Shown: one piece after another, positions 1 through 16,615 of the stretch | Numbering within the stretch: position 1 is the stretch's first letter | Layout: each line of letters starts with the position of its first letter | From: Bugulina stolonifera | Lineage: Eukaryota; Bryozoa; Gymnolaemata; Cheilostomatida; Bugulidae | DNA: 64,000 nucleotides | Reading direction: 5' to 3' | Assembly (NCBI GenBank): GCA_935421135.1 | Contig: OW285187.1 | Location: forward strand, 11,433,929 to 11,497,928 | Notes under the pieces: generated by a model | Database searches by the model: none | Seen by the model: only the letters and a program-made list of their open reading frames with translations | Told to the model about the DNA's origin: nothing | Program-made: the position numbers and the translations under genes

Positions 1-108
1 TCTTTAAGAAGCTAGTGTGACTCTTGCACTTGGGGAAAGTTCTGTGAACTGATTGGACAAATACTTGGAGGCTGCATTTGCTAATATATGAAGTTGTGAG
101 AATTTGAT
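1..108 (-). CDS. Caspase p10, continuing exon (cut by window edge)
   Basis: With the phase set by the previous exon (one base carried over), the exon after the TTCCTTAG acceptor reads SLQVFVQSVHRTF then SHTSFLK without stop to the window edge. This resembles the p10 segment with the pattern x-F-V-Q-S-x-x-x-x-F seen in caspases. The usual SWR motif is not clear. Another frame ends in TAA at 4-6 but would need a different phase. Confidence 0.5.
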
Positions 109-3100
109 CTAAGGAAAACCAACTCTTGGACTATTCTGTTTTATATGACTGTTCTACAATTTATGTACTTATACACAATAAATAATGTTATTTATGCAAG
201 GAATTTGTCTATTGAGACAAATTTCTTGCATAAATAACATCGTATGAGATGAAATTGCCAAACCCCCTAACACCCTAAGATGGCCATAATATGACGGGTA
301 CCTTGTGTGCCGTTGGCTCAGAGCATATTTACTAGAGGCCCTAGGTTCAAAGCTCAGTCACAGGGACTGGTATTTCCATGGATGTGAAAGAAGTCTCTGA
401 CTGCTCAATTAACAAATTCCTTACATAAATAATACCATAATGTATATTAGACTTACTTTCAAAACTCGACTTTATGATAAGCATATTGTCATAGTTCACT
501 CTTTCCATTTCTTTTCCACCAGGTTTATTAATAGCAGAAGGTAGAGGTCTAGCAACCATTAGCTGGTTTTCAGTTGATTCTGCTGTGCTGGTGGTAGAGT
601 CTGGTTGTAGAACGATATCAACACCTCTCTTACCTTCATCTTTCCTTACTAACAAAATATTAATTCAAATTATGTGCAATGTATACTACAACATGATTAC
701 ATCATGAGGTCATAGCATCAAATATCAATATGTAATTATAAATAATAAATAAAAGTTTCACTATAGAATATAAATAAATAATAATCTTACCTCCACTACA
801 AGCTTGAATGATTACAAGTTTTGGTCTATCAGCCATTGCAGGGAAGTTGAGAGGTGCTAGTAGATCATAGACATCTGTAAGATTGACTAGAATACCATCT
901 GAACCAAAGACGTAGTTTGCATCAATTCCATGGGATAAGATACACAGCCAGAAAGTACCGTAGTCAAGTCAGCATGTCGTCTGTCTTTCACTTCATTCTT
1001 GATTATATGCAGCATATCCTGTTGAATAACATGAAAGGCCTACTGATATTCTAATTATACTACATTATGTTGCATTTTTCCTGGGTTACAGAGCCTCCCC
1101 TTACTATGGGTTCTGAAAGTATCTCGGACCCTCACCAAGGCCTCGGAGACCATTTTCGATCCAGCTGTATCGGGTCAAAACTGATCTCACCAAGCCATTT
1201 TCAAATTAGGCATACAGCCACTGTGCATGCACAGATATCCGCCAAGAAAGTAACTTGAAAGATACTTTCAGAGCGCATGATTCAAATTTTATTTCAGTTG
1301 GAATTATTTGCTTATTTATTTTCAGAGACTGGTTGGTAGGGTTTCCCATCAGATTAGTTAAAACTGGTAGCCAATAGCAGTCTGTCCGCTCAAGACTCCA
1401 CTATTCCCATTTGGAGGTACTCATCTGTATTAGGTAGGATAATAGTGGTGCTGACCAGTTATACGTTGCCCAGGAACTGCCATCCATACCAATCCGTACA
1501 GATCGAGTTCCTCTGGCCTATCTTTAGCAATGAACGGCATCCCTAGGATGGTTTTCTGACTAATGTGGCACCACAAGTCTAACTCCCTAGTGACCCTAGC
1601 ACACCTAAGAAGAGGAGTTGCATCCAGTCAGCCATTACCCAATCAAGCCCCAGTTTTCCAGGTTTATTTTCGCATACCTGTGATTAGGTGATACACCCAG
1701 TGTTGATCAAGAAGTGCATGGCCTTGCCTACTACCTTTCCAGGCAGGAAATGGCTAGACTGGAGTGGTTTTTAAAGGTCTATGGGTTCTGAAGCCTGAGA
1801 GTTTCAAAGGCCACAGTGTTCAACGAAGACTTTGATGTGGGTGTTGCTGTCACCATAGGGATAGCAACCCATGAGGTATATTTAATAGGAACCCTCTTTC
1901 AGCTTCTAGAATCCTGGTCTTGCTTTTTCCCAGGTTACTCTGTCTATAGCCACCCACCGAGCTAATAGGCTTGGCAGCCTCATGTGAACCAGTGCAATAT
2001 CAAATACGCCTAATTGTATCCCATTAGTCAATGCCACCAATGTATACCAGGAAAGAGTAGCAAGCACCAACGACATACACCTATGATCTTACTAGTTAAT
2101 AGGAATCATGTGACCAGGTCATACAGTACAGGTTTGGGTAAATGCCAGTAACCCACCACGAGAAGGCATCACCTCATATGTATATACTTTCATACGATTT
2201 TGTATATATTTCTTTCCAAACGGAGATTTAAATTTATATGTTTAAATAAAAATACTACACTAACCAAAATTGCTCTAGAGCCAACCTACAAAATACACAT
2301 AGTTTATCATAGCATAATACCTCTGCTGTGACATCGTTCCATGTTGTGACTTTAAACTTGTGTGCACTGTTGGTCTAATTATATTATAACAGTCACAAAA
2401 TGGTTATTGCCCTACAATATTTCTACATGCATTACTACTACTGCACCGCTGGTACCTCTACTCTACCAGTTACCATAATAGTAAATAACATAGTGATATT
2501 ACCTGTGCTTTAACATCATTCCATGTGCTGACTTTAAACTTGAATGCTTGAAGCATATTCGTCAAATTTTCAACATCAGCCTCAGATCCATGTCTCTCCT
2601 CATAGTTGAGGAATTTATTGTTATTAATTATTAGAGCCCTTCCTCTAATCCTGGTCATAGGGAACACCTATAATAACGATTGTAGCTTTACATCTTGCAT
2701 TGAGCGCTACGAAAGAAAATATGATAGCATTGTTTATTGGGAAGTAAACGGGTTATCTGAAACAATGATGAATGAACTACCTTGTCAGTGTTAAGGTAGA
2801 GTCTTGTAATCTTAGCTAAGGAGGTGGGTACAGGCCTCTGATCTAAAGAGATCTTCAGTTGATTACGATCATTCTCAGGTAGTAAGTAGTCATCATCATC
2901 ATCGGAGAGATCACTGAGGTCTTCTGCTGCAACAGTCTGTAGTTTAGGAAGTGGTAGAGGAGACAAACAGGTAGATGACTCCTCATCTACAACTATACAT
3001 AGACATAATATTATACACATAATGCTATATTCTAGCATAAGTACAATATCCACAGAGTAAAAATACGCTCTCATGAAAGGATGACAATCAAAAGGGGCTT

Positions 3101-6100
3101 ATTTGCCAGGGAAATTCATTAATAATTATTCATCAGAGAGCATTCTGTTTTATCTACAGGCGATTTTCTGCATGATTAGAACTTTACAGATATCAGCTTT
3201 AAAACTAATCAGAAATTCCAAGTGAAGGTTGCTTAGTACGAGGTAATTTGAATTTTACGACAAAACTAGTATTTTTACATTCCAATATTCTAATTTTAAC
3301 CTGGTAGACACCAGTTTCTGCTTGGACAATCTACATGAAGCTATTATAAAATATATCAACCACACTGCAACAATAAAACTGAAAGTAGGTCTATGATACT
3401 TATACAATTTTTCATCAATTTAGAATTTATCCAACCAATGACATGGTCCCTTGAGTGTTAGTATCATCTGTTAAAGTTGTAACGCATAACTGTTGCACAT
3501 GTAGTACAATACACCTTTAGAGCTCTCTGGTAACGGCTAACCTGATGAACTACTATTGTATACCTCAATTTCTCTAAATTTTGCAAAGAGCCCCTAATTT
3601 TCTTGTTGATGTTTGAGATTAGAAAGTGTCTATTATCTGTAAATTAAACAACCGCACACTTTTCACCCATGGAGTACAGACAACTAATACACCAAAACTT
3701 ACAAGCAGGGTTTGAGCTCATTTCCTTTTCAATCCTCAACTCATCTACAGCCAACTGAAGACTTTCCATGTCCTCTCTGTTCAATCCGAAGCCTAATGCA
3801 ATAATTATAACTGTGATACACATCAGGGGCATAAAGAATAGTTATATAAAATATATGCGCAGAAAAATTGCAATAAACTGGGCCAAGCGTATTCATCAAA
3901 ACAGAAATAATGACAATCCCATCACTTACATGGATAGACAAGAGGACTTGGTACTTTGTCTGTACCACAGAGTACAGTCACCATGCCCTCCTTCATTCTG
4001 GTAGATGGAGTATCAGTCGAGGAGAGGTCATTACACCAAGTTGGGGGAACTTGTTTCTGGGGATGTGGGTTACCCTTCAGTAGACAATGTGGACAATGGA
4101 ATGTGTGAACCATTCTACTAGCTGGCCAGAATTCTTGAACTCGGGTAGAAATAGTTTTGGAGATCCTAACAATTTGTGTCCAGCATCTGGAAACATTCTC
4201 TACACCAGAAGACACCTGGATGGTTGCCAATCTAGAGTGGAAGTTATGAATGAGTTGAATGTGCAAGAGGTCATGGAACACTCGTACTCCATTCTTTCTG
4301 ATGGTCAAAGTATTTGTGTCATCAGGAAACATTCTCAACACCTCGATGCTCATTTGATGGAAAACGTAATGTGGCAAAGAAAGACCTTTGAACAGAATCT
4401 CCATTTTTAGAGTGAAGCCTTCAGCTTCAGAAGAATTTTCATTGAGGTACCCTGAGGAGAAGTACGGTAGAACCACACAGTTCTTGGACTGAAGAGAGAA
4501 TGGCCCATGTAAGAGACGGAATGTCTGTAACAAGGTGATGGCTACTTGCATATCGGTTTCAGTTCTGAATGCTGTCTCTGTTATAATCAGGTAGCGAAGG
4601 AGAACTTCCTCCATGATTCCGTCTTGTTGGAATGTAGTAACCAGTGCTGCATAGCGCTCTTTCTCAAGAAGTTGTCTGTTCATGACTATAGTGGGTTGGA
4701 AAGTGTTAAGCCTGGTCTGCCAAACCCCTTCATCATGGTTATACAAGACTGTAAGCAGTTTAGTAACTTCTGTGATTTGATGAAAGACGTAAGGTTGAAG
4801 ACCTTCAATATTGTCATAACGCAGCACATCTCCACAGTCATGCAAATAATTAAGAATAATGTTCAACTGATCCAACTCAATATTTCCGTCAGATTTGCGT
4901 AATGCTACGTAGATTTGATCAAAGACAGAACACTTTCCTTCACATCCTCCCAGATCTTTGGTAGAACCTTTACAAAATCTTGGCTGGATTGAAATATGCT
5001 CGACTTGAGTTTTTCAAACACTGGGTAGTCGCTATCATCATTACCAACTTCAAATATATCTTCAGGTAAGAACACATCGGTCGTGGTGTCAGAGAGGTGC
5101 TTTATCTCCTTAAATTTCCCTCCTAATAATTCTCCCTCCTTAATGTGTTCTTCACACAAATCGTTGGATATTTTGAGAAACGTGGCCCTAAGCTCAGTGA
5201 GGTCATCCGGAACAAATTTATCTTTGTGGGTAAAAATCAGTTTTGGAGGCCCCAAATCAGGATTTGCCAGGTACAAGTGAGACAACCAGTTGAATGCGAG
5301 TCTCCGTACAGCTTCTCTGTGACCTGATGTGTCTGATAGCTCCTTGTACTGTTCCATGCTTACAACTATTACTGGTATACAGTTCTGTTTCAGTGTCAGC
5401 TGGTAAGTCACATGATACACACTCTGACCACCCATGTCTATTAGCCTGAGTTCTGTGTTCTTGACTTTCACCTTTTCAACATTGAACACCTTCGTAGCTT
5501 CATCTACCTTAGCATCAGAGCTTCGCTTTGTCAGAATTCGTTTCCTATCACTTCATTGTAGAGTTTTAATTAAACTAGTCTTGCCAGCCATTGTGTTACC
5601 AATAACGGCTATGGTAACCAACGGAAGATTCTGACCTTTACCTTTAGCCAAGTCCGTGTAGAATTGTCTGATTGCGGGTAATCCTCGCTTACTCACCTCA
5701 AATGGCGGTGATCTAATAGCGTCACATCCAGTAATATTGAAGTTTATTAACTGAGTTAGCTGTAGTATCTGTGGATCTAGAGATGCCAATGATTTGTTAT
5801 AGCAGATGCTTAGTTCTACTAAACTCCTCAATTCGCACACAACTGCAGGTAGAGTTACGAACTGGTTATAGGATATAACAAGACTCTTGAGCTGCTGTAG
5901 GTTACTCATACTAAAACAGTCATAATAATACAATACAATGGCACATTGTACTGTATCCTATTTCAGTAGACAAATCCGGAATGATGTAATCTTTATATTA
6001 CAAGTAAGACTTATCTTCCCAGAAGGATGGTCAATTATCCACAGCTATGTAATAGCTATGGATAATTGACTATGTATGAAAATTTAGTAGTAGGTTCACT

Positions 6101-9100
6101 TGTGATAATATAATTGGTATCCAGAAAGCAGATGATATTAGTGGTTTCAAGTTTAGCTAGTAATAAATCCTCTACTGATTTCCATCACAATCAAATTCTT
6201 CTTCCAAAATAATCTATATAGCTATTTAGTGTAGGTGCAAGACAGTCAAGTATCAAATACAGTAGCCTACATAATTGAAGGTTCTTGATGAATGATACTA
6301 TTCTGCACTTGCCATATGTATCAGGGATATAACTGTGGCCAACAATATCAAAGGTCTGGGTATTGTTTTATCAAAGGAATGCAGCTTCGCACAAGATGAG
6401 CTAATCCATTAAGCCGTCCTCTTCTCCTAGGCCTACTCACCATCAACCACCACATTGAACCAAACACTACTTACTGATTAGTATCAAAGAAAAGGCCTGA
6501 TTCTTCGGCTAGTTCAAACCAGAGCCATTGAGAGACGGCTCTGGTCCAAACCACCCAACAGCGTGATGGTCTCTGTTTTGGTGGAACATGGCCAGTTCTA
6601 CTACTGGACCCACTATGACTAATGCATAATATGAATATATATGTACAATATTATACTCATGTCTATACAAAACTGTGGACTCAAGTGGAAAGTATTGATA
6701 TACTGACCTCTCTGGCAGATGGATTAGTCTACAGCTACCCATGTCCAACTCTCTGAGGGATACCATAGATGTGATTATATCTGGTACACCATTGGGTGAG
6801 AAATCATTGTTGGATAGACCCAACTTTTCCAGTTTGTTCAGTCTAGACATGCTACACATTAAATATAAGAACATTGTAATATAAGAACCTGCAGAGTATA
6901 GCTTCTGTAGTATTGTGATATTAGGATATTAGGGATAGCGGGCATAGCCATACAACACATGTAAAAATAGGGCATAACTCCGATAGACTGCATCAAATCA
7001 TACTTCTGTAGTATATGCAATTACGATTGAGATTGATAAGTACTGATACCTTATTTTGGTAACTACTTACAATGTATCTATGATCGACATGGAATGACAT
7101 GGTATATTTCGAGTGCTTACTCCTTTGTAAGACCCTCACGGAGAATATACCTAGCAATGTCATATAAAAGCAGTGAAGCGAGACCTCGTCCGAGCGACAA
7201 TAAGCACAGAGATATGCTAGTTTGACTTTATAATTTTAATTGAAAAGGCCGAGTAAGACAAATTCAATAAGAGCATAAAAAGACATAAGGCCATGGAAAA
7301 TCATATTTTACAAAACCTTTATTATCTGTGTCAGGTTTAAAAAATGCATGAAGGTGGGAGGTACAATTTTATATAAAAATATAAATTTTTTATTTGATTG
7401 GGATGAAATTTCCTTGACAATGGAGGTGTTGCAACACTACCTGAAGAGGGAGCCAACACAGATCTAAAGTAAGACTTTTAATGGTTGAAAGGAAAAAAAC
7501 CAGTGGTATACAAGTAATATACAAAATACAATAAATATGATTAGATAACCCTGACTAGTAATTTATAGGGTCACTCGTTCAGGAGCGTCCCCTAGGTGCA
7601 AAGCAGTACAGCTCTGAGTTCTAACTACATGTAACTAAAATTCAGCAAATCCTTCTAACTTAGATTTAGATTCTCTCAAACTGGCAGGATTTGAAAATGA
7701 TTTGAGAGAAAATTTCTAATTCTCCATTGTAAATTAGATTTAGAATCTTTTTTATTACAGCCACCTACCACCCTACCACCTAATATTTTCTGATTTGAAA
7801 ACCAAACCTTTCTAATTTGCCACATATTTTTAGAAAAATAGAAGCGCAATTTCCCATTATAATTTTCTCATACTGATTCTTGTCCACAATGATATGTTAC
7901 CTCTAAATTTGTATCATATAAAGCTACTACTACAAGTACTAGTATTGTGTACTCATATTATAAGTACAAGTATAATTGATATATATTGACCTTTCTGGTA
8001 GATGGGTTAGTCTACATCTAGACACATACAACTCTCTGAGGGATACCATAGATGTGACTACATCTGGTACACCATTGGATGAGAAATCATTGTCAGATAT
8101 CACCAGCTTCTCCAGTTTGTTCAGTTTAGACATGCTAAACATAACATACAAGAAAATTGTAATATACATATAAGTCAGTATGAATGTGCTGTACTTAGTC
8201 TAATAGAAATCTGAGTCTGCGGCACCAATCCTCATTAACCTCATCAATTCTCATCTCTAATCACATACTGATTTGAGTAACCTAAATTACTAAATAAAAT
8301 GGTCCATGTGCTAAGTTTCTTGAAGACCTTTAGGTTTAAATTTCTACATGATCTTTACTTAGCATAGGCACCACCTTAACATTGCAATAAGCACCCGTTT
8401 TCAAATCTACAAATCCCATGAAAATGAGCGGAATATCACATATCCTGTGTCTGCTGCTTCTGATGAACTACCTCATAAGCTCCTGTACTACTACTGGCAC
8501 TAGAACCAGTATCAACGCCACCAATAGTTGGTTGAATACTTTTTAGCATTTTTGCAACTGACATTATTTTTTATAATTTTACTTTGTTGTTTTTATTTTT
8601 CAAATAAACAAAAGAGCAATCTAGTATTTGTGCCATGCTAATTTTTCATTTTTTACTGAAAAACTACGGCCTGTTTCATACTGAACTGGGTTACTGGGTT
8701 ACTACTGTATGACTCCTGGGTAGAGAGTGTTTACATGACCTAATTGTTATCTAAGGCCATTTTACAAAAGTCATTACCTGTTAGTATCCTAACTATAACC
8801 TATCCTAACATCAGTGATTACTTTTTTAGAAATCCATCCCTTGGTTGTTGTCATTGTTTAAACATTCTGATTACCATCTTATCAAGTCTTTATAATTATA
8901 TGCATAATATCCAATTTTGATATCAAATTTAAGTATTACTAGTACATGAAAACGAGCAGAGTATCTACGGCATATTACATATCCATGATGTATTTTTTTA
9001 TCAACTATTTAAGGTAAACTGCTTTGACTGCTCACATAACATTACACAAGAACATTGTCAATATATGAGCTTGATGAACTACAAATGTATGAATATGGTA

Positions 9101-12100
9101 TATTATTATTGTATATAAATGCATTACTACTAGTATTGTGTGGAGGTGGAACGAGACTCGAGATTTCTCGAGTCTCGTATCGACTTTTCTTGTCTCGAAA
9201 GTCGTCTCGAGATGGCAATTAATATTCGAGACTGGAAAACAAATAGCAGCTAATAGTTTTTATTTATATTAAATTAATAATTATAATACAATCAATTGCT
9301 TATCAACAATAAATCTATCAAATAGAAAATTATTATTCAAATTATTTAGTAATACTACCTACATGTACATTCCCAGGACTGATTTCCTAGTAATAGCATT
9401 GCAGCTAACGCTGAGCTACTAGTCGATCACTACAAGTCATACAGAATTACTAACGACTGTCAATCACCACTTCCATAATGCAATGTTATGTTCTTACCAA
9501 AAGTTGTCTACTCGTGAGATTATTTCATTAAAGTAAACATAACTCCATACTAATTTGTCAAATTACATTATTATTTTAGTACCAATGTACAATGTACATG
9601 CAATGTAATGTACATGGAATTCATGTGCAATATATTTCACATCCTCCTTCCTGCTCACCTTTTATTGAAATGCATAATGATAAAATACAGAGTTTACAGA
9701 GTAGCAATTGAAACTATTGGAGTTCTAACATGCAGATATATAAAATTTGGCAAACTTTTTAGGAAATTTCCCTTCAATCCTAAAACCCAGTCTCGTCTTG
9801 AATTTTTTAGAAGTAGTGTCTCGAATCTCGTCTCGAATCCAAAAATGCTGTTTCGATCCACCTCTAGTATTGCATACTCATATTATAGATATTGATACAC
9901 ACTGACCTCTCTGGTAGGCGGGTTAATTTACAGTTAGACATGTCAAGTTCTCTCAAGGATTCCATATATGTGAACAAATCTGGTACACCATTGGATGAGA
10001 ACAGGTTGTTAGAGATATCCAGCTTCTCCAGTTTGTTCAGTTTAGACATGCTACACATTATACACAAGATTATTGTAATATATGAACATGTAGACTATAT
10101 GAACATGTAGACTATAAATATATGAATATGGTATATTATTGTATACAAATGTATTACTACAACCAGTATTGTGTACTCATATTATAAGTATTGATATATA
10201 CTGACCTCTCTGGTAAATGGATTAGTCTACAGCTATTCATGTACAACTCTCTGAGGGATACCATAGATGTGAATATATCTGGTACACCATTGGATGAGAA
10301 ATCATTGTCAGATATCATCAGCTTCTCCAATTTGCTCAGTTTAGACATGCTACATGTTATACACAAGAATATTGTAATATACAATGTACATGGTATAAAA
10401 TAGATACTTTGTTGGTGAAAGTCTACAAATTGCTTTCAATTCCCATTACAAGTATTGGTCTATCAGTATATACCAATCTCCAGATAAAAATGAATAGAGG
10501 TTCCACAGAAAACCACTAGAATATTATTAGTGTTAGCCATAGCAGCATTAGTTAACACTGTAGTAATATTGGGTGTAAATATTTTGTAGAGAGTAGATAA
10601 CACAGTATACTACATATTGGATCTTGCACTATCCTGGGTTTCTGGTTCTTTCCAAAAATGAGTGTGGTATTCTGTGTTTTGTACTACTTCAATGGCCACA
10701 TCAATGACATCAGTTCTAACCATTATACAAACACAAGTCAGGTCATCGAATGAGTGTGGCAGAAGATGTACGAAACCGGAATTTGTGTAATAGAAATGGG
10801 AAATTCTCAAAGTTGGTCGAAGGGTAAACAACTCCAATTAAAACTAACTTCACACGATTGAAGTTTTCACATTTTTGTGGATTTGAATTACTGACCTCTC
10901 TGGTAGGTGTGTTAGTTTACATCTACCCATGTCCAACTCTGTCAAGGTTACCATAGATGCAAATATATCAGGTACACCATTGGATGAGAAGTCATTGCTA
11001 GATATCACCAGCTTCTCCAGTTTGTTCAGTTTGTTTCAGTTGACTATAAATTTATGAATATGGTATATTATTGTATATAAAGGTATTACTACTAGTGTTG
11101 TGTACTCACATTACAAGTATTGATATAAATTATACTGACCTCCCTGGTAGGTGGGTTAGTCTAGAGCTATACATGTCCAACTCTCTGAGGGATACCATAG
11201 ATGTGAATATATCTGGTACACCATTGGATGAGAAATCATTGTCAGATAATACCAGCTCCTCAAGGTTCTCTAAGCCAGATATTCTACAAGCAAGCAAGTA
11301 CATAGTAGATACTGCGTGCATAAGGAGTTATGCAAATGTTAAAATGTGTTCGTAAGCAAAATAGTTAGAGGTACGTATATAGAGGCCCCAAACCCAGGGC
11401 CTCTACGGCACCTAATCACCTAGCAGAGTGATCAGAACATGCTACCTACTTCAAACCCCAGTCAGGGACTGGTATTTTCATGGATTTGAAACAAGTCACT
11501 GACTGCTCAAAGATAAATTCCTTGCTAAAAATAAATTATATATGTATATAATGTTCTACTAATTCACTACAAGTACAAAAGACTACAGCATAAAACTACT
11601 GCTTGCTACTGCTCCTCCGCCTACTACTACTGCTGCTGCTACTACTGCTACTGCTACTACTACTGCTGATACTACAACTGCTGATACTACTGCTGATACT
11701 ATACTACTACTGCTACTACTACTACCGCTACTACTAATATTATGTTGTGCATAGAGACGGGAAAATAACTCCAAGCTAAGAAAACAAGCAGTATCTCTAT
11801 TAAATCGATGGATATACTGGTATTAGCTGTGATGTAAGGTTTACTATGGGTGCCCTTAGTTGTCACAATTATATTTTAGTTGGTGGGTATGTACAGAAAA
11901 CTTTCCTGAACCTGTCAGTAAATATTGGATTCAAATCTGTGTAGTGATCTGGGCAACACAATTTGAAACAAAATAATCTTTGAAATAATTGCTATAACCA
12001 ATTTCATGCATAGTTGAATGGGTGGGGTTTTCGCAGCAGTGGCCTAATACTACAATTGTAATGGCCAATGTGTTGGTGTCCGAGTGGTCTAGCGCTAGTC

Positions 12101-13356
12101 ACTATGATCTTGCAGCAAAGACGCAAGTTATCTGTAAGGACATGAGTTCGAGTCCCGCCAATGACCTGAAGGTTTTCGTCCCAAAGAAGGTTTCCCTCCG
12201 TGCCATATTGGACTATAATAATATCCAGCACTAGGAGCTGTGGTGGCTCCTCGATTAGCTCTGCGATTGGGCAGCTACATTAAAGAATTGTGCTTGGCAC
12301 CATGGATATTATATTCATCAACTGCAGAGCAAATATGAGAGAAGTTAAGATACCCCTTGTCTCGGAGGTGAAGGCGCATCCTCTTCCCTTCCGCTACCTT
12401 TGCATGAGAACTTTTCTCAACTTATCAAATGTATATATACTAATACAATGCTATATGTGTTAGAATACTGTACCTTGAAAGCTGAGAGCTGTCTTCAAGG
12501 TTCCTCACAGTAAGATGAGTTAGATCTGAGGCTAATAGATGAATATCAGGAGGAATAACTCCACCTATCACCATGTGAGTAATTACATGGCCTATAGCCG
12601 CTCCCTTGATCTCATATATACTGTACCAAGATGTGGGTTTGTATCTCCAGTATTCACCAGGAAGACCCTCTCCTGAATGTCTGAACCAGACATTGTATTT
12701 TTCTACAGTAGGAATTACATGTTTGAGCAAGTACCACATGAAAAAGATGTGGAGAATACAACTATTGTGGACTCTACACCACAGACTCATCAAGTTACCC
12801 TCTCTCATTCCTTTGTTTCCATGAGGGGAAGGAAACAACGTTAGGATGAAAGTAGAATAGGGGTTAAAAAGAATAAGGGGCAGCATTGACGACCTCCATA
12901 TACACAGAGTCATAAAGGACTCCGCATCATGTGCACTACTTTTTATTTTGTTAAACCAATACTCATAAATTTATGATGATCACACAAGGAAGTAAATACA
13001 ATGAAGAAATGGATTGTAAGAAATCATACAGCATGCAGAGTATATAGTTCAGAGTATATAATATACAAATAGTTGCACATTAATAGAATACATCACAAAT
13101 GTATACAACACATTTGTAAGATTCCACTAATTCATGGACAATAAAATTAATAATGGTATTGGAAGTCAGTGTAAATTATATGAACAAGTAGGGGCATGTA
13201 GGGAAATTATGTAGTACAGCAGCACTCATGCTTAATCCATTTCTTCAATCTTACCTAAAAACTTGCCATAGATACTGTATACCGTCTTGTAGGCAACACG
13301 ACTTAGCATTTTCTAGCAGCAGTGTACTTGTACGTACACCTACATGACTTGCATAT
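1..13356 (-). CDS. LRR-ROC-COR-caspase fusion gene, disrupted, 3' end outside window
   Basis: Coding exons in transcript order (minus strand): 13255-13356, 12474-12773, 11140-11283, [10896-11030, decayed], 10206-10349, 9907-10050, 7991-8134, 6708-6851, 3930-5910, 3703-3792, 2781-2992, 2503-2667, 791-1018, 457-648 and <1-108. Each junction has GT-AG signals and matching phase, which joins the LRR, ROC-COR and caspase parts into one reading unit. By family knowledge, ROCO proteins use LRRs for sensing or dimerising and ROC-COR as a GTPase switch; caspases are Cys-His proteases of cell death. The product would be a GTPase-gated caspase, by inference. Three lesions (TGA at 5553-5555, one-base losses near 4905-4940 and near 968-978) interrupt this copy. 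The start codon was not found. The most N-terminal exons are uncertain. Confidence 0.75.
184..240. repeat. 26-bp inverted repeat (hairpin) of SINE-tail type
   Basis: ATGTTATTTATGCAAG... pairs with ...CTTGCATAAATAACAT around a 4-base loop, with one mismatch. The arms resemble the SINE tail at 405-440, suggesting two SINE tails inserted head to head. Confidence 0.6.
301..440 (+). mobile_element. tRNA-derived SINE copy
   Basis: A box-B-like stretch (GGTTCAAAGCTC) follows a box-A-like TTGGCTCAGAGC, and the body CAGGGACTGG..CATGGAT..GACTGCTCAA matches a second copy at 11,386-11,530. It lies in an intron of the caspase region. Its AT-rich tail (AAATTCCTTACATAAATAA) resembles the arms of the hairpin at 184-240. 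Confidence 0.55.
457..648 (-). CDS. Caspase inter-domain linker and start of p10
   Basis: Continues the QACSG motif across the splice into RKDEGKRGVDI, then a Ser/Thr/Pro-rich linker and DNMLIIKSSFE, which matches the first strand of p10 (the A-x-S-T region of typical caspases). Acceptor TTGTTAG, donor GAAA|GTAAGT. The 5' end has two bases of a split codon, consistent with the upstream exon. Confidence 0.75.
791..1018 (-). CDS. Caspase p20 exon with catalytic His and Cys (one-base frameshift)
   Basis: The exon starts as DMLHIIKNEVKDRRHAD. After a one-base loss near 968-978 it continues as DYGTFWLCILSHGIDANYVF and ends VIIQACSG across the splice. His of SHG and Cys of QACSG are the catalytic dyad. 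The exon is 228 nt, whereas phases at both ends require 229, so a base is missing. Donor GGAG|GTAAGA. Confidence 0.85.
1020..2320. other. Intron of the caspase region, no gene seen
   Basis: Intron between the caspase exons at 791-1018 and 2503-2667. From about 1,070 to 2,170 it is less AT-rich than its surroundings and reads like an old inserted repeat, but I found no clear terminal repeats, coding frame or second copy in the window. Confidence 0.4.
2328..2375 (-). pseudogene. Partial duplicate of the caspase p20 exon end
   Basis: The stretch CCTCTGCTGTGACATC... and ..GTGACTTTAAACTTG matches 2500-2546, the 3' end of the p20 exon (codons for FKFKVSTWNDVKAQ) with its donor. It is a short diverged exon fragment, probably left by local tandem duplication. 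Confidence 0.55.
2503..2667 (-). CDS. Caspase p20, N-terminal exon
   Basis: Encodes RGRALIINNNKFLN, then RHGSEADVENLTNML and FKFKVSTWNDVKAQ. This is the first strand and helix of the caspase fold, with the conserved Arg of the R-x-G-S-E/D substrate pocket. Acceptor TTATAG|GTG, donor CACAG|GTAATA, phase 0 at both ends. Confidence 0.85.
2781..2992 (-). CDS. Acidic linker exon before the caspase domain
   Basis: A 212-nt exon with a run of aspartates (EDLSDLSDDDDDY) and a helical end (TSLAKITRLYLNTDK). An acidic, unstructured linker before a caspase unit resembles a cleavable prodomain, but no processing site is proven. It joins in phase 0 to the first p20 exon. Confidence 0.65.
3703..3792 (-). 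CDS. Linker exon between COR and caspase domains
   Basis: A 90-nt exon (acceptor GCATTAG, donor GCTT|GTAAGT) encoding a helical, charged linker (LNREDMESLQLAVDELRIEK). It takes one base from the ROC-COR exon and gives one base to the next exon, so phases agree on both sides. It has coiled-coil character. Confidence 0.65.
3930..5910 (-). CDS. Large exon: terminal LRRs, ROC GTPase and COR domain (TGA and frameshift inside)
   Basis: It reads LRRs (MSNLQQLKSL...), the connector RSPPFEVSKRGLPAIRQFY, then a ROC domain: P-loop GNTMAGKTS (G1) at about 5580-5610, G3-like LIDMGGQ at about 5425-5445 and G4-like THKD at about 5220. COR follows (NYLHDCGDVLRY near 4850). An in-frame TGA at 5553-5555 follows SLIKTLQ, yet homology resumes in the same frame (SDRKRILTKRSSDAKVDE). 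The frame stops at 4905 while COR continues in another frame. The length of 1981 nt is one base short of the 1982 required by the exon phases, which supports a one-base loss. Donor is T|GTAAGT. Confidence 0.85.
6031..6072. repeat. 18-bp hairpin in an intron
   Basis: GTCAATTATCCACAGCTA is followed by a 5-base spacer and its reverse complement with one mismatch. No role is evident; it lies in the intron between the ROC exon and the first upstream LRR exon. Confidence 0.55.
6708..6851 (-). CDS. LRR exon of the array (144 nt), next to the ROC exon
   Basis: Two LRRs (MSRLNKLEKLGLSNNDFS..., SLRELDMGSCRLIHLPE), TGTAG|C acceptor, AG|GTCAGT donor, phase 2-2. It splices in frame to the LRR start of the large ROC-COR exon (T|ATG at 5910). 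Confidence 0.8.
7991..8134 (-). CDS. LRR exon of the array (144 nt)
   Basis: Two LRRs (MSKLNKLEKLVISDNDFS..., SLRELYVSRCRLTHLPE) between a TTTAG|C acceptor and a GTCAAT donor, phase 2-2. The donor (AAAG|GTCAAT) is weaker than the GTCAGT of the other units. Confidence 0.8.
9141..9866. mobile_element. hAT-type MITE inserted in the LRR array
   Basis: The ends are TGGAGGTGGAACGA and the inverse of TAGAGGTGGATCGA, with TCTCG-rich subterminal repeats. Flanking 8-mers are GTATTGTG (9133-9140) and GTATTGCA (9867-9874). The same intron position is uninterrupted in the units at 7,950, 10,170 and 11,095, giving paralogous empty sites. There is no transposase, so it is non-autonomous. Confidence 0.75.
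9907..10050 (-). CDS. LRR exon of the array (144 nt)
   Basis: Two LRRs (MSKLNKLEKLDISNNLFS..., SLRELDMSNCKLTRLPE), phase 2-2 with the same splice sites as its neighbours. A hAT-type MITE (9141-9866) sits 40 bp from its donor end, inside intron sequence shared with the other units. Confidence 0.8.
10206..10349 (-). CDS. LRR exon of the array (144 nt)
   Basis: Two LRRs (MSKLSKLEKLMISDNDFS..., SLRELYMNSCRLIHLPE). The acceptor is ATGTAG|C, the donor AG|GTCAGT, phase 2-2. It is nearly identical to the exons at 9907-10050 and 7991-8134, including flanking intron sequence, which indicates recent tandem duplication of an exon plus part of its introns. Confidence 0.8.
10896..11030 (-). pseudogene. 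Decayed LRR exon (acceptor lost)
   Basis: The LRR reading (KLNKLEKL..., NDFSSNGVPDIFASM, LTHLPER) and the GTCAGT donor are intact. The 5' boundary is not: the usual TGTAG|CATGTC acceptor is replaced by sequence near 11,030-11,045 in which a TGA lies in frame just before the repeat. It is probably skipped in splicing. Because all array exons are phase 2-2, skipping would keep the frame. Confidence 0.6.
11140..11283 (-). CDS. LRR exon 1 of the array (144 nt, 48 codons)
   Basis: The exon encodes two leucine-rich repeats (ISGLENLEELVLSDNDFS..., then VSLRELDMYSSRLTHLPGR) between a TTGTAG acceptor and a GTCAGT donor, phase 2 at both ends. It is the most divergent member at its N-terminal half (ISGLENLEELV instead of MSKLNKLEKL), as expected for the first unit of the array. 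Confidence 0.75.
11386..11530 (+). mobile_element. tRNA-derived SINE, second copy
   Basis: Shares the body CAGGGACTGGTATTTTCATGG...ACTGACTGCTCAA with the copy at 301-440, preceded by a tRNA-like segment with a CTTCAAACCCC box B. It lies in the intron upstream of the first LRR exon. Confidence 0.5.
11585..11750. repeat. Trinucleotide-rich microsatellite (CTA/CTG)
   Basis: Degenerate run of ACT, GCT and ACTACTACTGCTGCTG units. It produces an artificial Ser/Val-rich open frame on the minus strand. Confidence 0.8.
12065..12310 (+). mobile_element. tRNA-derived SINE with class II tRNA-like head
   Basis: The head carries box A (TCCGAGTGGTCTAGCGC) and box B (GAGTTCGAGTCCC) at class II (Leu/Ser-like) spacing. 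The 5' and 3' ends do not pair as an acceptor stem, so it is not a working tRNA. An unrelated body follows to about 12,310. Confidence 0.6.
12474..12773 (-). CDS. N-terminal exon of unknown domain preceding the LRR array (100 codons)
   Basis: A 300-nt exon with a GTGTAG acceptor and a TTTCAAG|GTACAG donor, phase 2 at both ends like the LRR exons. The peptide is rich in aromatic residues (WFRHSGEG, EYWRYKPTSWYS) and ends with the hydrophobic, LRR-like pattern DLTHLTVRNLEDSSQLS. It probably forms a cap or an N-terminal domain before the repeats. I do not recognise the family; no CARD, death or TIR signature is visible. Homology to other ROCO proteins of the same genome would settle it. Confidence 0.5.
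13255..13356 (-). CDS. Candidate upstream exon of the ROCO-caspase gene (34 codons)
   Basis: A 102-nt open segment lies between a TATACAG acceptor and an AG|GTAAGA donor, phase 2 at both ends, so it splices in frame to the 12474-12773 exon. The peptide matches nothing I recognise. Support is splice signals and phase only, and a chance exon of this size is possible. The true 5' end may lie further right, where LINE debris begins near 13,897. Confidence 0.35.
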
Positions 13357-13896: not shown

Positions 13897-14970
13897 TTTT
13901 GTAGACAATCAACATGGTTTTCGTCTGCATAGATCATGTGAGACTCGGTTGAGACATACTCTTGGGTACATAGCTCATCTTTATGAAAAAACCGTTAACC
14001 TGATTATTTTAGGTTTTTCGAAGGAGTTTGACTCCGCATGTCATTTTTAAACTACAGAACACTGGTCTAAATAAGAAATTAGTTTAATGGGTTAAAAACT
14101 TTCTTATAGATAGACTACGATTTGGGGAAATTGAAGGACAAAAATCCAGTAAAACACCTGTAGCTTCTGGGACACCACAAGGTTTAGCGTTGGGCCCACT
14201 TCTTTTCTTAGTCCACATTAATGAATTGCCAGACCTGTTTAAATCTCAATGTCCCTTATTTGCTGATGATGTAATAATTTATAATACTACTGAAAATATA
14301 GCGGTTCTTAAGGAAAACTTAATTTCAGTGGAGGCAGATGAAATTTAACGTATCAAAGGTCGTTTTTCTTCAGGTTAGCGTACAAAGGAAGGAACACTCT
14401 GGTTACAGCTTTTGAGAAAGTCCACATACAAAAGTTGACTCTTGTCTCAATCTTAGGTTGCAACGCCAGTCAAACTTGAAATGGGATAAGCATATTGAGG
14501 AAATGACAACTAGATAGACTCAAAGAATTGCTTTACTTCGCCGAGTCCTTAAGTTTGCTGATACCCCCACAAGAATGATAGCATGTTTTTCATTTACAAG
14601 AAAAATTTTAGAATTTACTTCTCAGGACACCTACTAAAAGACCCAGATGTAAAAACTTGAAAAGGTGCAAAATAAAGTTCTTAATTTCATTTTTAGAATC
14701 AAAGGGCAAACAGGTTTTACAAAGTTGAGGAAGCATACAAATTTTTAGTCTCTAAAAGAGCGCAGAGAGGATGGGAGACTCAGGCCCTTTGCAAAATAAT
14801 TGAGTGAAGAAATTGAGCCAGTTTTTCGATATGACCTGGATAAAAGGCAAAAGAGAAATACTTCCACTCGATACATACGAACTAATGTTTTTTTATTAAA
14901 ATCCTTCTGGCCTATAACGTTACGAGACACAAGGCAATATATTCATATTGTCAAAAACCCGAATCATTAA
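13897..14970 (+). mobile_element. Decayed LINE reverse transcriptase
   Basis: Frames joined across stops and shifts give NQHGFRLHRSCETRLRH, FSKEFDSA, VASGTPQGLALGPLLFL and the catalytic LFADDVIIY box at about 14,255. A C-terminal segment ends with a PITLRD motif. This is the order of a non-LTR retrotransposon RT. Many lesions make it non-functional; 5' truncated. Confidence 0.85.
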
Positions 14971-15559: not shown

Positions 15560-16615
15560 TCATTTTTCTTCCTTAAGATCTCGAATGGTTCGCGGGAGGA
15601 AGCTATTGTGGAATAACGAACTGTTTGTGCGGAATGTGGCATGGAGTCCATGAGTCTGGGATCTGGTGGCCATTGTGGTGAGTGGTTTGTTGATGATATT
15701 ATCATAGGAGGCTGACAGAGAAGGGTGGTGCTCTTCCTTCGCTAGGATGCGCATCAGAAGATTCACTCTTTGGTTTTTTCTTCTCTTATGCAGTGGGACA
15801 AGACCAAGTTTGGTTTTCACTTCTTCTATACCAAACCTCCCCTTGATATTTGCAATGAATCTCACCGCTTGGTCCTGCAGCAGCTCAATACTGGAGATTT
15901 CTTGTTTGCAACTAGGATCCCAAGCAGCTGCTGCATACTCAAGATGTGGGAGACAAAGCGTTTTGTAGGCTAGTAATTTAGCCTTCCTAGGAGCCCAGAA
16001 AAGTGCCCTCTTTACCATTTCCAGTTGCTGTTTTGTGGTCATCAATTTCCACTGAATGTGAGCGGTAAACTTCATGTCAGCTTGGATTATGACCCCCAGA
16101 TATCGGACTTCGTCAACAGTGTCTAGTAACTGCCCATCAAGTGAGTAGCTTGGAGAGAGGCCTTTGTTGTTGAACTGGATAATTTTACTCTTTTTTATGT
16201 TGAAGTCCATTCCCCGTCTAATAGCCCAGCCGCTCAATTCTTCCAGGTTTTTCTAGAACTCCAATGTGTCCTCATGGCAAGTGATAGCTTGGTACATTAG
16301 TGTGTCATCAGCAAATAGTGCGACTTTACAGTCCACTTCTTTTGGGAGATAATTTATAAAGATAAGGAACAATACAGGCCCGAGGACCGAGCCCTGGGGT
16401 ACACCGGAGGTGACTGGTAGTTTATCTGATTTTTTTGCCATTGAGAATCACACATTGGGTCCTTCCTAGCAAGAAGTCATATATCCATTGCTTTATGTAA
16501 TAATCTAGGCTATCAATACTAAACAGCTTCTCTATAAGTAGGGCATGAGGTACTCTATCAAATGCCTTCTTGAAATCAAGCACAGTTGTGTGAACACTGT
16601 GAATTCAATATCTAT
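15560..16615 (-). mobile_element. LINE fragment: RT and C-terminal region
   Basis: The minus strand encodes [26 protein letters not shown], a break, then SKIIQFN, DEVRYLGVII, KLLAYKTLCLPHLEYA and FLPRTIRDL, in the usual order of a jockey/CR1-like non-LTR element. Upstream, DFKKAFD is readable in another frame. Frame breaks near 16,250 and 16,440 show decay. It is 5' truncated. Confidence 0.9.

Follow-up and report, generated by a model that had tools for sequence, protein, structure and literature searches.

Does the genome of the bryozoan Bugulina stolonifera encode a single protein in which leucine-rich repeats (LRRs), a ROC-COR GTPase and a caspase follow one another, or do two neighbouring genes lie side by side? 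The question is raised by a stretch of 64,000 nucleotides (the window; C1:11433929-11497928 of a 235-Mb genome, C1 being contig OW285187.1), for which the original prediction had proposed one gene joining all three parts. We found this proposal supported by splice phases shared among paralogues, by a count of how often the two halves are located together, and by fused NCBI proteins of Watersipora subatra. It is likely that the window carries a decayed member of a multigene family encoding single-chain LRR-ROC-COR-caspase proteins, which would probably be receptors activated by proximity. As read from sequence, the traits of this family are its domain order and exon layout, some 40 linked copies, the retention of caspase residues in most copies examined, the fusion in Watersipora, and several broken copies.

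Layout of the gene in the window

The gene occupies the minus strand from about position 12,700 down to base 1 of the window, where it exits, and most of the caspase p10 lies outside. It comprises an N-terminal exon, six LRR exons (one of them defective), a large LRR-ROC-COR exon, two linker exons (L1 and L2), and caspase exons covering p20 and the start of p10. The p10b and C-terminal exons are in the adjoining DNA (L029), at about C1:11433667-11433558 and downstream. The predicted succession of P-loop, DMGGQ, THKD, COR, and a caspase p20 with SHG and QACSG is present on this strand, after the LRR exons, and the exon start that had been placed at 2,992 is the L2 acceptor of the family. The features are as follows, in the order of transcription.

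12474..12702, minus strand: N-terminal exon, the cap before the LRRs (VWFRHSGEG...ITHMVIGG), placed by a match to the Watersipora protein P0051 and by splice sites; alternative donor at 12509
11140..11283, minus strand: LRR module exon a, 144 bases, phase 2-2
10896..11039, minus strand: LRR module exon b, with AA in place of the acceptor AG; its first codon is a stop
10206..10349, minus strand: LRR module exon c, 144 bases, phase 2-2
9907..10050, minus strand: LRR module exon d, 144 bases, phase 2-2
7991..8134, minus strand: LRR module exon e, 144 bases, phase 2-2
6708..6851, minus strand: LRR module exon f, 144 bases, phase 2-2
3930..5910, minus strand: large exon with the last LRRs, the ROC GTPase, COR and a C-x-H-C motif; donor phase 1
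5555-5553, minus strand: in-frame TGA in ROC, just past the P-loop helix
3703..3810, minus strand: linker exon L1, a short helical piece, phase 1-1, with counterpart exons in paralogues
2781..2992, minus strand: linker exon L2, an acidic SDLSDDDD piece, phase 1-0, included in the codon-position test in paralogues
2503..2667, minus strand: caspase p20 exon a (p20a; RGRALIINN..RHGSEAD, with the S1-pocket Arg), phase 0-0, PF00656 E 2.5e-11
791..1018, minus strand: caspase p20 exon b (p20b; SHG, QACSG), phase 0-1 in paralogues, frame broken in the window, PF00656 E 6.6e-8 (3' part)
about 971-967, minus strand: 5-base insertion, an apparent short tandem duplication, which shifts the p20 frame
457..600, minus strand: caspase p20/p10 linker and p10 start (p10a; NYDNMLIIKSS), phase 1-1

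The N-terminal exon matches P0051 just past the N-terminal 45 residues of that protein (E 5.5e-10), and the same piece of P0051 also matches an exon upstream of the paralogue L044. An imperfect CTA / 15-base tandem array lies between this exon and the LRR exons (11595-11736). In a Pfam scan the large exon gives LRR matches and a sub-threshold Roc match, and it has a counterpart in all 19 paralogue loci that were fetched. The claim that phases agree at every junction holds in part. Sites with the family phases are present at each junction checked (ROC-COR donor 1, L1 1/1, L2 1/0, p20a 0/0, p20b acceptor 0, p10a 1/1), with the family site not being the top-scoring one in the window for the L2, p20a and p10b acceptors; the gene is not intact, having at least two frame lesions here.

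One gene or two

The main alternative is that two neighbouring genes, an MFHAS1-like LRR-ROC-COR gene and then an independent caspase, were co-duplicated many times. The layout offers it some support, because a single large exon contains ROC-COR, whereas the caspase is spread over further exons set apart by introns, and because a conserved Met (VYxM) close to the start of p20a might conceivably initiate translation. Against it stand the splice phases. We compared the paralogues using the best-scoring splice sites, chosen without a frame rule around core patterns of our own making, of which the COR-end pattern anchors close to the donor. The COR exon ends in a phase-1 donor in 18 of the 19 loci where it was found. 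Further along, the L2 donor is in phase 0 (8/8), p20a has an acceptor in phase 0 (8/9) and a donor in phase 0 (9/9), p20b has phases 0 (10/10) and 1 (11/11), the p10a donor is in phase 1 (8/8), and p10b has phases 1 (9/11) and 0 (10/11). The L2 and p10a acceptors are less clear (phase 1 in 4/8 and 5/8, respectively).

Frame-ruled chains of exons were tried for 15 loci and are complete to the stop codon in L044, L046 and L036, and in L035 without L1; the chain of L041 reaches a stop without the p10a block. The chain script has a built-in frame rule, so the phases of these chains are by themselves weak evidence, and the gene models of L031 and L032 were not used because of implausible splice sites and misplaced block limits. 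The chains nevertheless connect L1 and L2 to both sides, and open-frame paralogues in the predicted order do exist, as the original prediction had asked to be checked. The linker exons themselves look translated, because differences between paralogues peak at third codon positions (180/150/248 by codon position in L2 and 41/29/56 in L1, from pairs that are not independent). This coding-like substitution is also at odds with two separate genes. A search of the same genome with a junction-spanning protein revealed no spliced retrocopy among 98 scored of 304 candidates; its matches are exon-sized, bar a few overlaps that run past the exon end through stops.

The two halves are also found together throughout the genome. 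Own-genome searches gave at least 139 caspase, at least 20 COR-A and at least 112 Roc matches. We kept the 30 of the 112 Roc places with an open frame of at least 236 residues, leaving out the other 82 (frames of at most 220 residues), and grouped them with all 20 COR-A and 20 COR-end places into 45 clusters. Caspase places were typed by hand from these searches, omitting p10-only and duplicate matches. A caspase lies on the same strand within 8 kb downstream of 41 of the 45 ROC-COR clusters, at a median distance of 2.5 kb, and only one was found within 8 kb in any other geometry. By comparison, the count averaged 0.116 and never exceeded 2 in 1,000 random placements, for which the lengths of contigs C8 and C10 were guessed. 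Exon homologues among the 19 fetched loci (E 1e-4) are ROC-COR in 19, p20a in 17, p20b in 18, p10b in 15, and p10a and the C-terminal exon in 6 each; exon order was printed for six of the loci, and the stretch fetched for L048 stops short of its caspase place.

We then searched protein collections with a profile of two model proteins, obtaining 37 matches; only the 7,996 candidates with the most shared words were scored, and other species may have been missed. Proteins of Watersipora subatra are among them, and no other named relatives in this search cover both halves. P0051 (1,386 residues) contains LRRs, ROC-COR and caspase, and aligns over 97% of the query with 43% identity. P0052 (1,219 residues) likewise has all three in one protein, and P0055 (944 residues) starts within the P-loop of ROC and terminates in the caspase. 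In each of these three, one protein continues from ROC across the linker into the caspase, which again contradicts a pair of genes. When P0051, P0052 and P0054 were aligned with five of our models, P0051 and P0052 were unbroken across the COR-L1 join (alongside L044, L046 and L041) and the L2-p20a join (alongside L044, L041, L036 and L035). At the latter join the L046 model is longer by ten residues, owing to an acceptor chosen by the script, and the length of the L1-L2 stretch varies. In NCBI, P0051, P0052 and P0054 are named MFHAS1-like or MFHAS1 homolog, the label otherwise used in the Watersipora set being "uncharacterised".

Other searches returned the halves separately. A single full-length query found 24 ROC-COR relatives in metagenomes, none fused to a caspase, which would fit two genes, though these are probably gene calls on genomic contigs. 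A junction-spanning alignment query returned 26 caspases, with no Roc or COR listed for any of them. The ROC-COR alignment gave 85 pattern matches in prokaryote genomes, of which tblastn confirmed 0, and no relative was confirmed in viral contigs; bacterial COR proteins appeared only as weak partial matches in the two-protein profile search. With the phases, the linker exons and the Watersipora proteins on the other side, we consider the two-gene explanation most improbable.

P0051 starts with MGAKSS, which resembles an N-myristoylation signal; if it is a true signal, the receptor may be located at the inner membrane. An exon matching this start was not found in the first 22 kb of the window or in L049.

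A tree of 32 ROC-COR sequences, 26 from this genome and 6 of the 24 metagenome relatives, requires four changes of the label metagenome, or at least three when judged by its starred branches. Hence the family was probably already diverse before the lineages of the genome and the metagenomes split. All three main groups of paralogues contain loci with downstream caspases. In L048 (C1:11553061-11566705), a close paralogue of the window copy, the ROC and COR-end parts are about 9.5 kb apart, as if an insertion had split the large exon, and a proline-rich frame lies within the split copy (L048:2879-3322). In L047, a very long tandem repeat, open in three frames, separates the linker exon from the caspase place (L047:4777-6508), and frames resembling reverse transcriptase by eye are found in the caspase half of the otherwise open paralogue L031 (L031:6118-7320).

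Domains of the protein and lesions of the window copy

The ROC domain was identified with PF08477 in the L035 model (E 6.6e-7, 30.0 bits against a cut-off of 27). The P-loop pattern is present in 13 of 19 paralogue loci, and both the P-loop and DxGG are invariant in the 24 metagenome relatives. COR follows directly after ROC, as is characteristic of ROCO proteins. The class of the ROC-COR part is settled as Roco/LRRK by predicted structure: for P0001, a metagenome relative 54% identical to the L035 model (mean predicted local distance difference test [pLDDT] score 77), the first Foldseek matches are the Roco protein of C. tepidum, LRRK1 and LRRK2, and the first 24 rows of the list are all Roco or LRRK entries. 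The folded model of P0055 also matches LRRK1/Roco, its other half matching caspase-2, CED-3 and caspase-1, with a region of low confidence linking the two.

The caspase is the best supported domain. PF00656 matches with E 1.4e-34 in one model protein (profile positions 1-219 of 233), and with 4e-33 in the L044 model and 8.3e-38 in P0051, spanning p20 and p10. The closest solved sequences in the PDB are caspase-3/6/7, caspase-2, CED-3 and caspase-8. We searched 20 loci with regular expressions; 17 have the S1-pocket Arg, 16 have SHG and 14 have the catalytic-Cys motif. In Pfam scans covering two model proteins and four from Watersipora, we found no protein kinase family, no NACHT or NB-ARC, the switch being ROC, and no death-fold prodomain (CARD, DED) between COR and the caspase.

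The LRR exons are modular. Of 19 modules listed, 18 have a candidate pair of splice sites (sought 130-170 bases apart), and 15 of these 18 are in phase 2-2, with lengths of 132-147 bases. Such symmetric exons can be added or lost without loss of frame. Near the end of the COR exon, C-x-H-C followed by P and W is kept in the 24 metagenome relatives and in five aligned paralogue rows; this motif is perhaps metal-binding.

The copy in the window has three lesions: the TGA in ROC, the 5-base insertion in p20b (an excess measured relative to L030, L031 and L032), and the missing acceptor of LRR exon b, which is probably dead or skipped. Because all three fall in one copy, they suggest a pseudogene. 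The TGA and the 5-base shift could instead be assembly errors or allelic, and the rest of the copy still has sites with the family phases. This explanation is improbable given three separate lesions in a single copy and the ROC-COR frames visibly broken in at least 4 of the 19 fetched loci (L033, L039, L045 and L048). These sequences suggest that the architecture is real and that the window copy is a broken, decayed member of a multigene family.

Several observations weigh against our reading of the family, the three lesions among them. Roc matches are below the cut-off in the L044 model (20.3 bits), P0051 (22.8), P0052 (26.2), P0054 (26.2) and P0055 (16.7). COR scores are weak in many members, with only 8 of 20 COR-A matches above the cut-off, E 0.03 in the L035 model and E 0.084 in the window alone. 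CHG replaces SHG in P0052 and P0055, and L033, L036 and L037 are without the Arg of the p10 motif, so some copies may be inactive. In L034, L047 and the truncated stretch of L048 our caspase patterns gave no match, and the p10 part of the P0055 model is below pLDDT 50. P0055 is annotated without LRRs, and P0054 with LRRs, ROC and no more than the beginning of a caspase. Downstream caspases within 8 kb are missing from four of the 45 clusters. Two of these are COR genes on C6, the third is an isolated ROC on C11, and the fourth is the split copy at C1:11555061, whose closest caspase is 11 kb off. The fusion is read from genomic sequence, gene models and NCBI protein models, and the role, ligand binding, GTP use and protease activity are predictions.

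Elsewhere in the window, positions 14088-14345 on the plus strand hold a fragment of reverse transcriptase (PF00078, E 4.4e-10), and a long minus-strand frame at 15563-16252, with no Pfam match, resembles by eye the C-terminal part of a non-LTR (long terminal repeat) element. In a search of the assembly for COX1, one contig (C27) had 11 in-frame TGA in COX1, and C26:34375-36051 and C12:7199-8926 bear COX1 in two pieces, also with in-frame TGA. The extra contigs may represent further mitochondrial genomes within the assembly, or else copied mitochondrial DNA.

Proposed role and comparison with known systems

What might such a protein do? Initiator-type caspases are activated when brought together. 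The LRR array would bind a ligand, and binding would alter the nucleotide or dimer state of ROC-COR. Two caspase domains, each on an acidic, disordered linker and with neither a CARD nor a DED prodomain in our scans, would then meet and be activated by induced proximity, and a cut in the long p20-p10 linker would free an active protease, leading to cell death or inflammation-like signalling. ROC-COR could thereby stand in for both the NACHT/NB-ARC switch of nucleotide-binding leucine-rich repeat receptors (NLRs) and the adaptor step to the caspase. ROC-COR dimers are described as changing with nucleotide state, COR forming much of the dimer interface (PMC6337361). The sensing of danger signals and the triggering of cell death, which the original prediction had put forward as inference, keep that standing here.

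The size of the family, its exon modularity and its broken copies fit the birth-and-death evolution of immune receptors, which makes these proteins candidate receptors of that kind. Alternatively, the fusion could be real and the caspase a protease or regulator acting outside immune killing, e.g., in development, differentiation, colony degeneration-regeneration or signalling. Caspases have non-death roles in animals, and some copies deviate from the canonical caspase motifs. We hold this second possibility to be rather unlikely, because the number of linked copies (about 40), the presence of broken ones and the modularity of the LRR exons are reminiscent of immune receptor families, and because bacterial proteins of the same architecture have been assigned to conflict systems (PMC8195603).

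The original prediction had stated that ROCO proteins end in kinase, death or other domains. This was incomplete, since bacterial LRR-ROC-COR proteins with C-terminal caspases are already in print (Kaur et al. 2021, PMC8195603). Those LRR-AP-GTPase(ROC)-COR proteins carry a C-terminal effector, the caspase being among at least 24 kinds of domain, occur as several paralogues per genome, and have a proposed role in conflict or immunity (PMC8195603). They differ in being prokaryotic, whereas here an animal-type caspase is encoded in a multi-exon gene.

Other known ROCO proteins are alike in part. Reviews recognise three groups, with LRRs only, kinases or a death domain (PMC6337361). MFHAS1/MASL1 has the same LRR-ROC-COR order, and three of the Watersipora proteins bear its name in NCBI, but it has only LRRs before ROC-COR, the simplest arrangement (PMC4104024). 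In P0051, P0052, P0055 and two paralogue models, by contrast, a caspase follows COR. DAPK1 and LRRK1/2 also join the switch to an enzyme, and LRRK1/2 are among the top structural matches; their enzyme is a kinase, which follows COR in LRRK but precedes ROC in DAPK1, a protein that also contains a death domain (PMC6337361). Trichoplax has an expanded set of at least 17 ROCO proteins with CARD, death, TIR, AAA and TPR domains, i.e., adaptor domains where here there is the caspase itself, and the figure legend names no caspase (PMC4104024). The LRR-ROCO proteins of brown algae form a multigene family of candidate immune receptors with phase-2 LRR exons, a likeness that may be convergent; their LRR exons are of 72 bp, compared with 132-147 bases here, and they carry no effector domain (PMC11378527).

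Inflammasomes consist of NLR receptors with caspase-1/-8, and thus of an LRR sensor, a nucleoside triphosphate switch and a caspase output. The protein proposed here would follow the same logic in one polypeptide, with a ROC GTPase in place of the NACHT/NB-ARC ATPase and no CARD, PYD or DED adaptor in the scans. Among the papers listed in our searches of open-licence literature, we found no description of an animal LRR-ROC-COR-caspase protein. Sponges may offer a partial precedent, as the legend to a drawing of NLR architectures in Dysidea names CASc and COR (PMC12909245). New, as far as these searches go, is the animal fusion, the bacterial architecture being known and the Watersipora sequences being public under other names.

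At its broadest, the proposal is that some bryozoans carry LRRs, ROC-COR and an executioner/initiator caspase in one polypeptide, a one-protein inflammasome in about 40 diversified, exon-modular copies, which evolved in animals beside or instead of the NLR-adaptor-caspase pathways and matches an architecture otherwise found described only in bacteria; we give it an even chance of being right. If true, animals have fused a ROCO switch directly to a caspase, an architecture common to them and to bacterial conflict systems. The fusion would allow a clean test of whether ROC-COR dimer switching drives a protease, and would bear on how ROC-COR passes its state to the adjoining enzyme in LRRK2 and DAPK1. 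It would also mean that animals whose immunity is little studied have an expanded NLR-like receptor family built on a GTPase, and not on an ATPase of the STAND (signal transduction ATPases with numerous domains) class.

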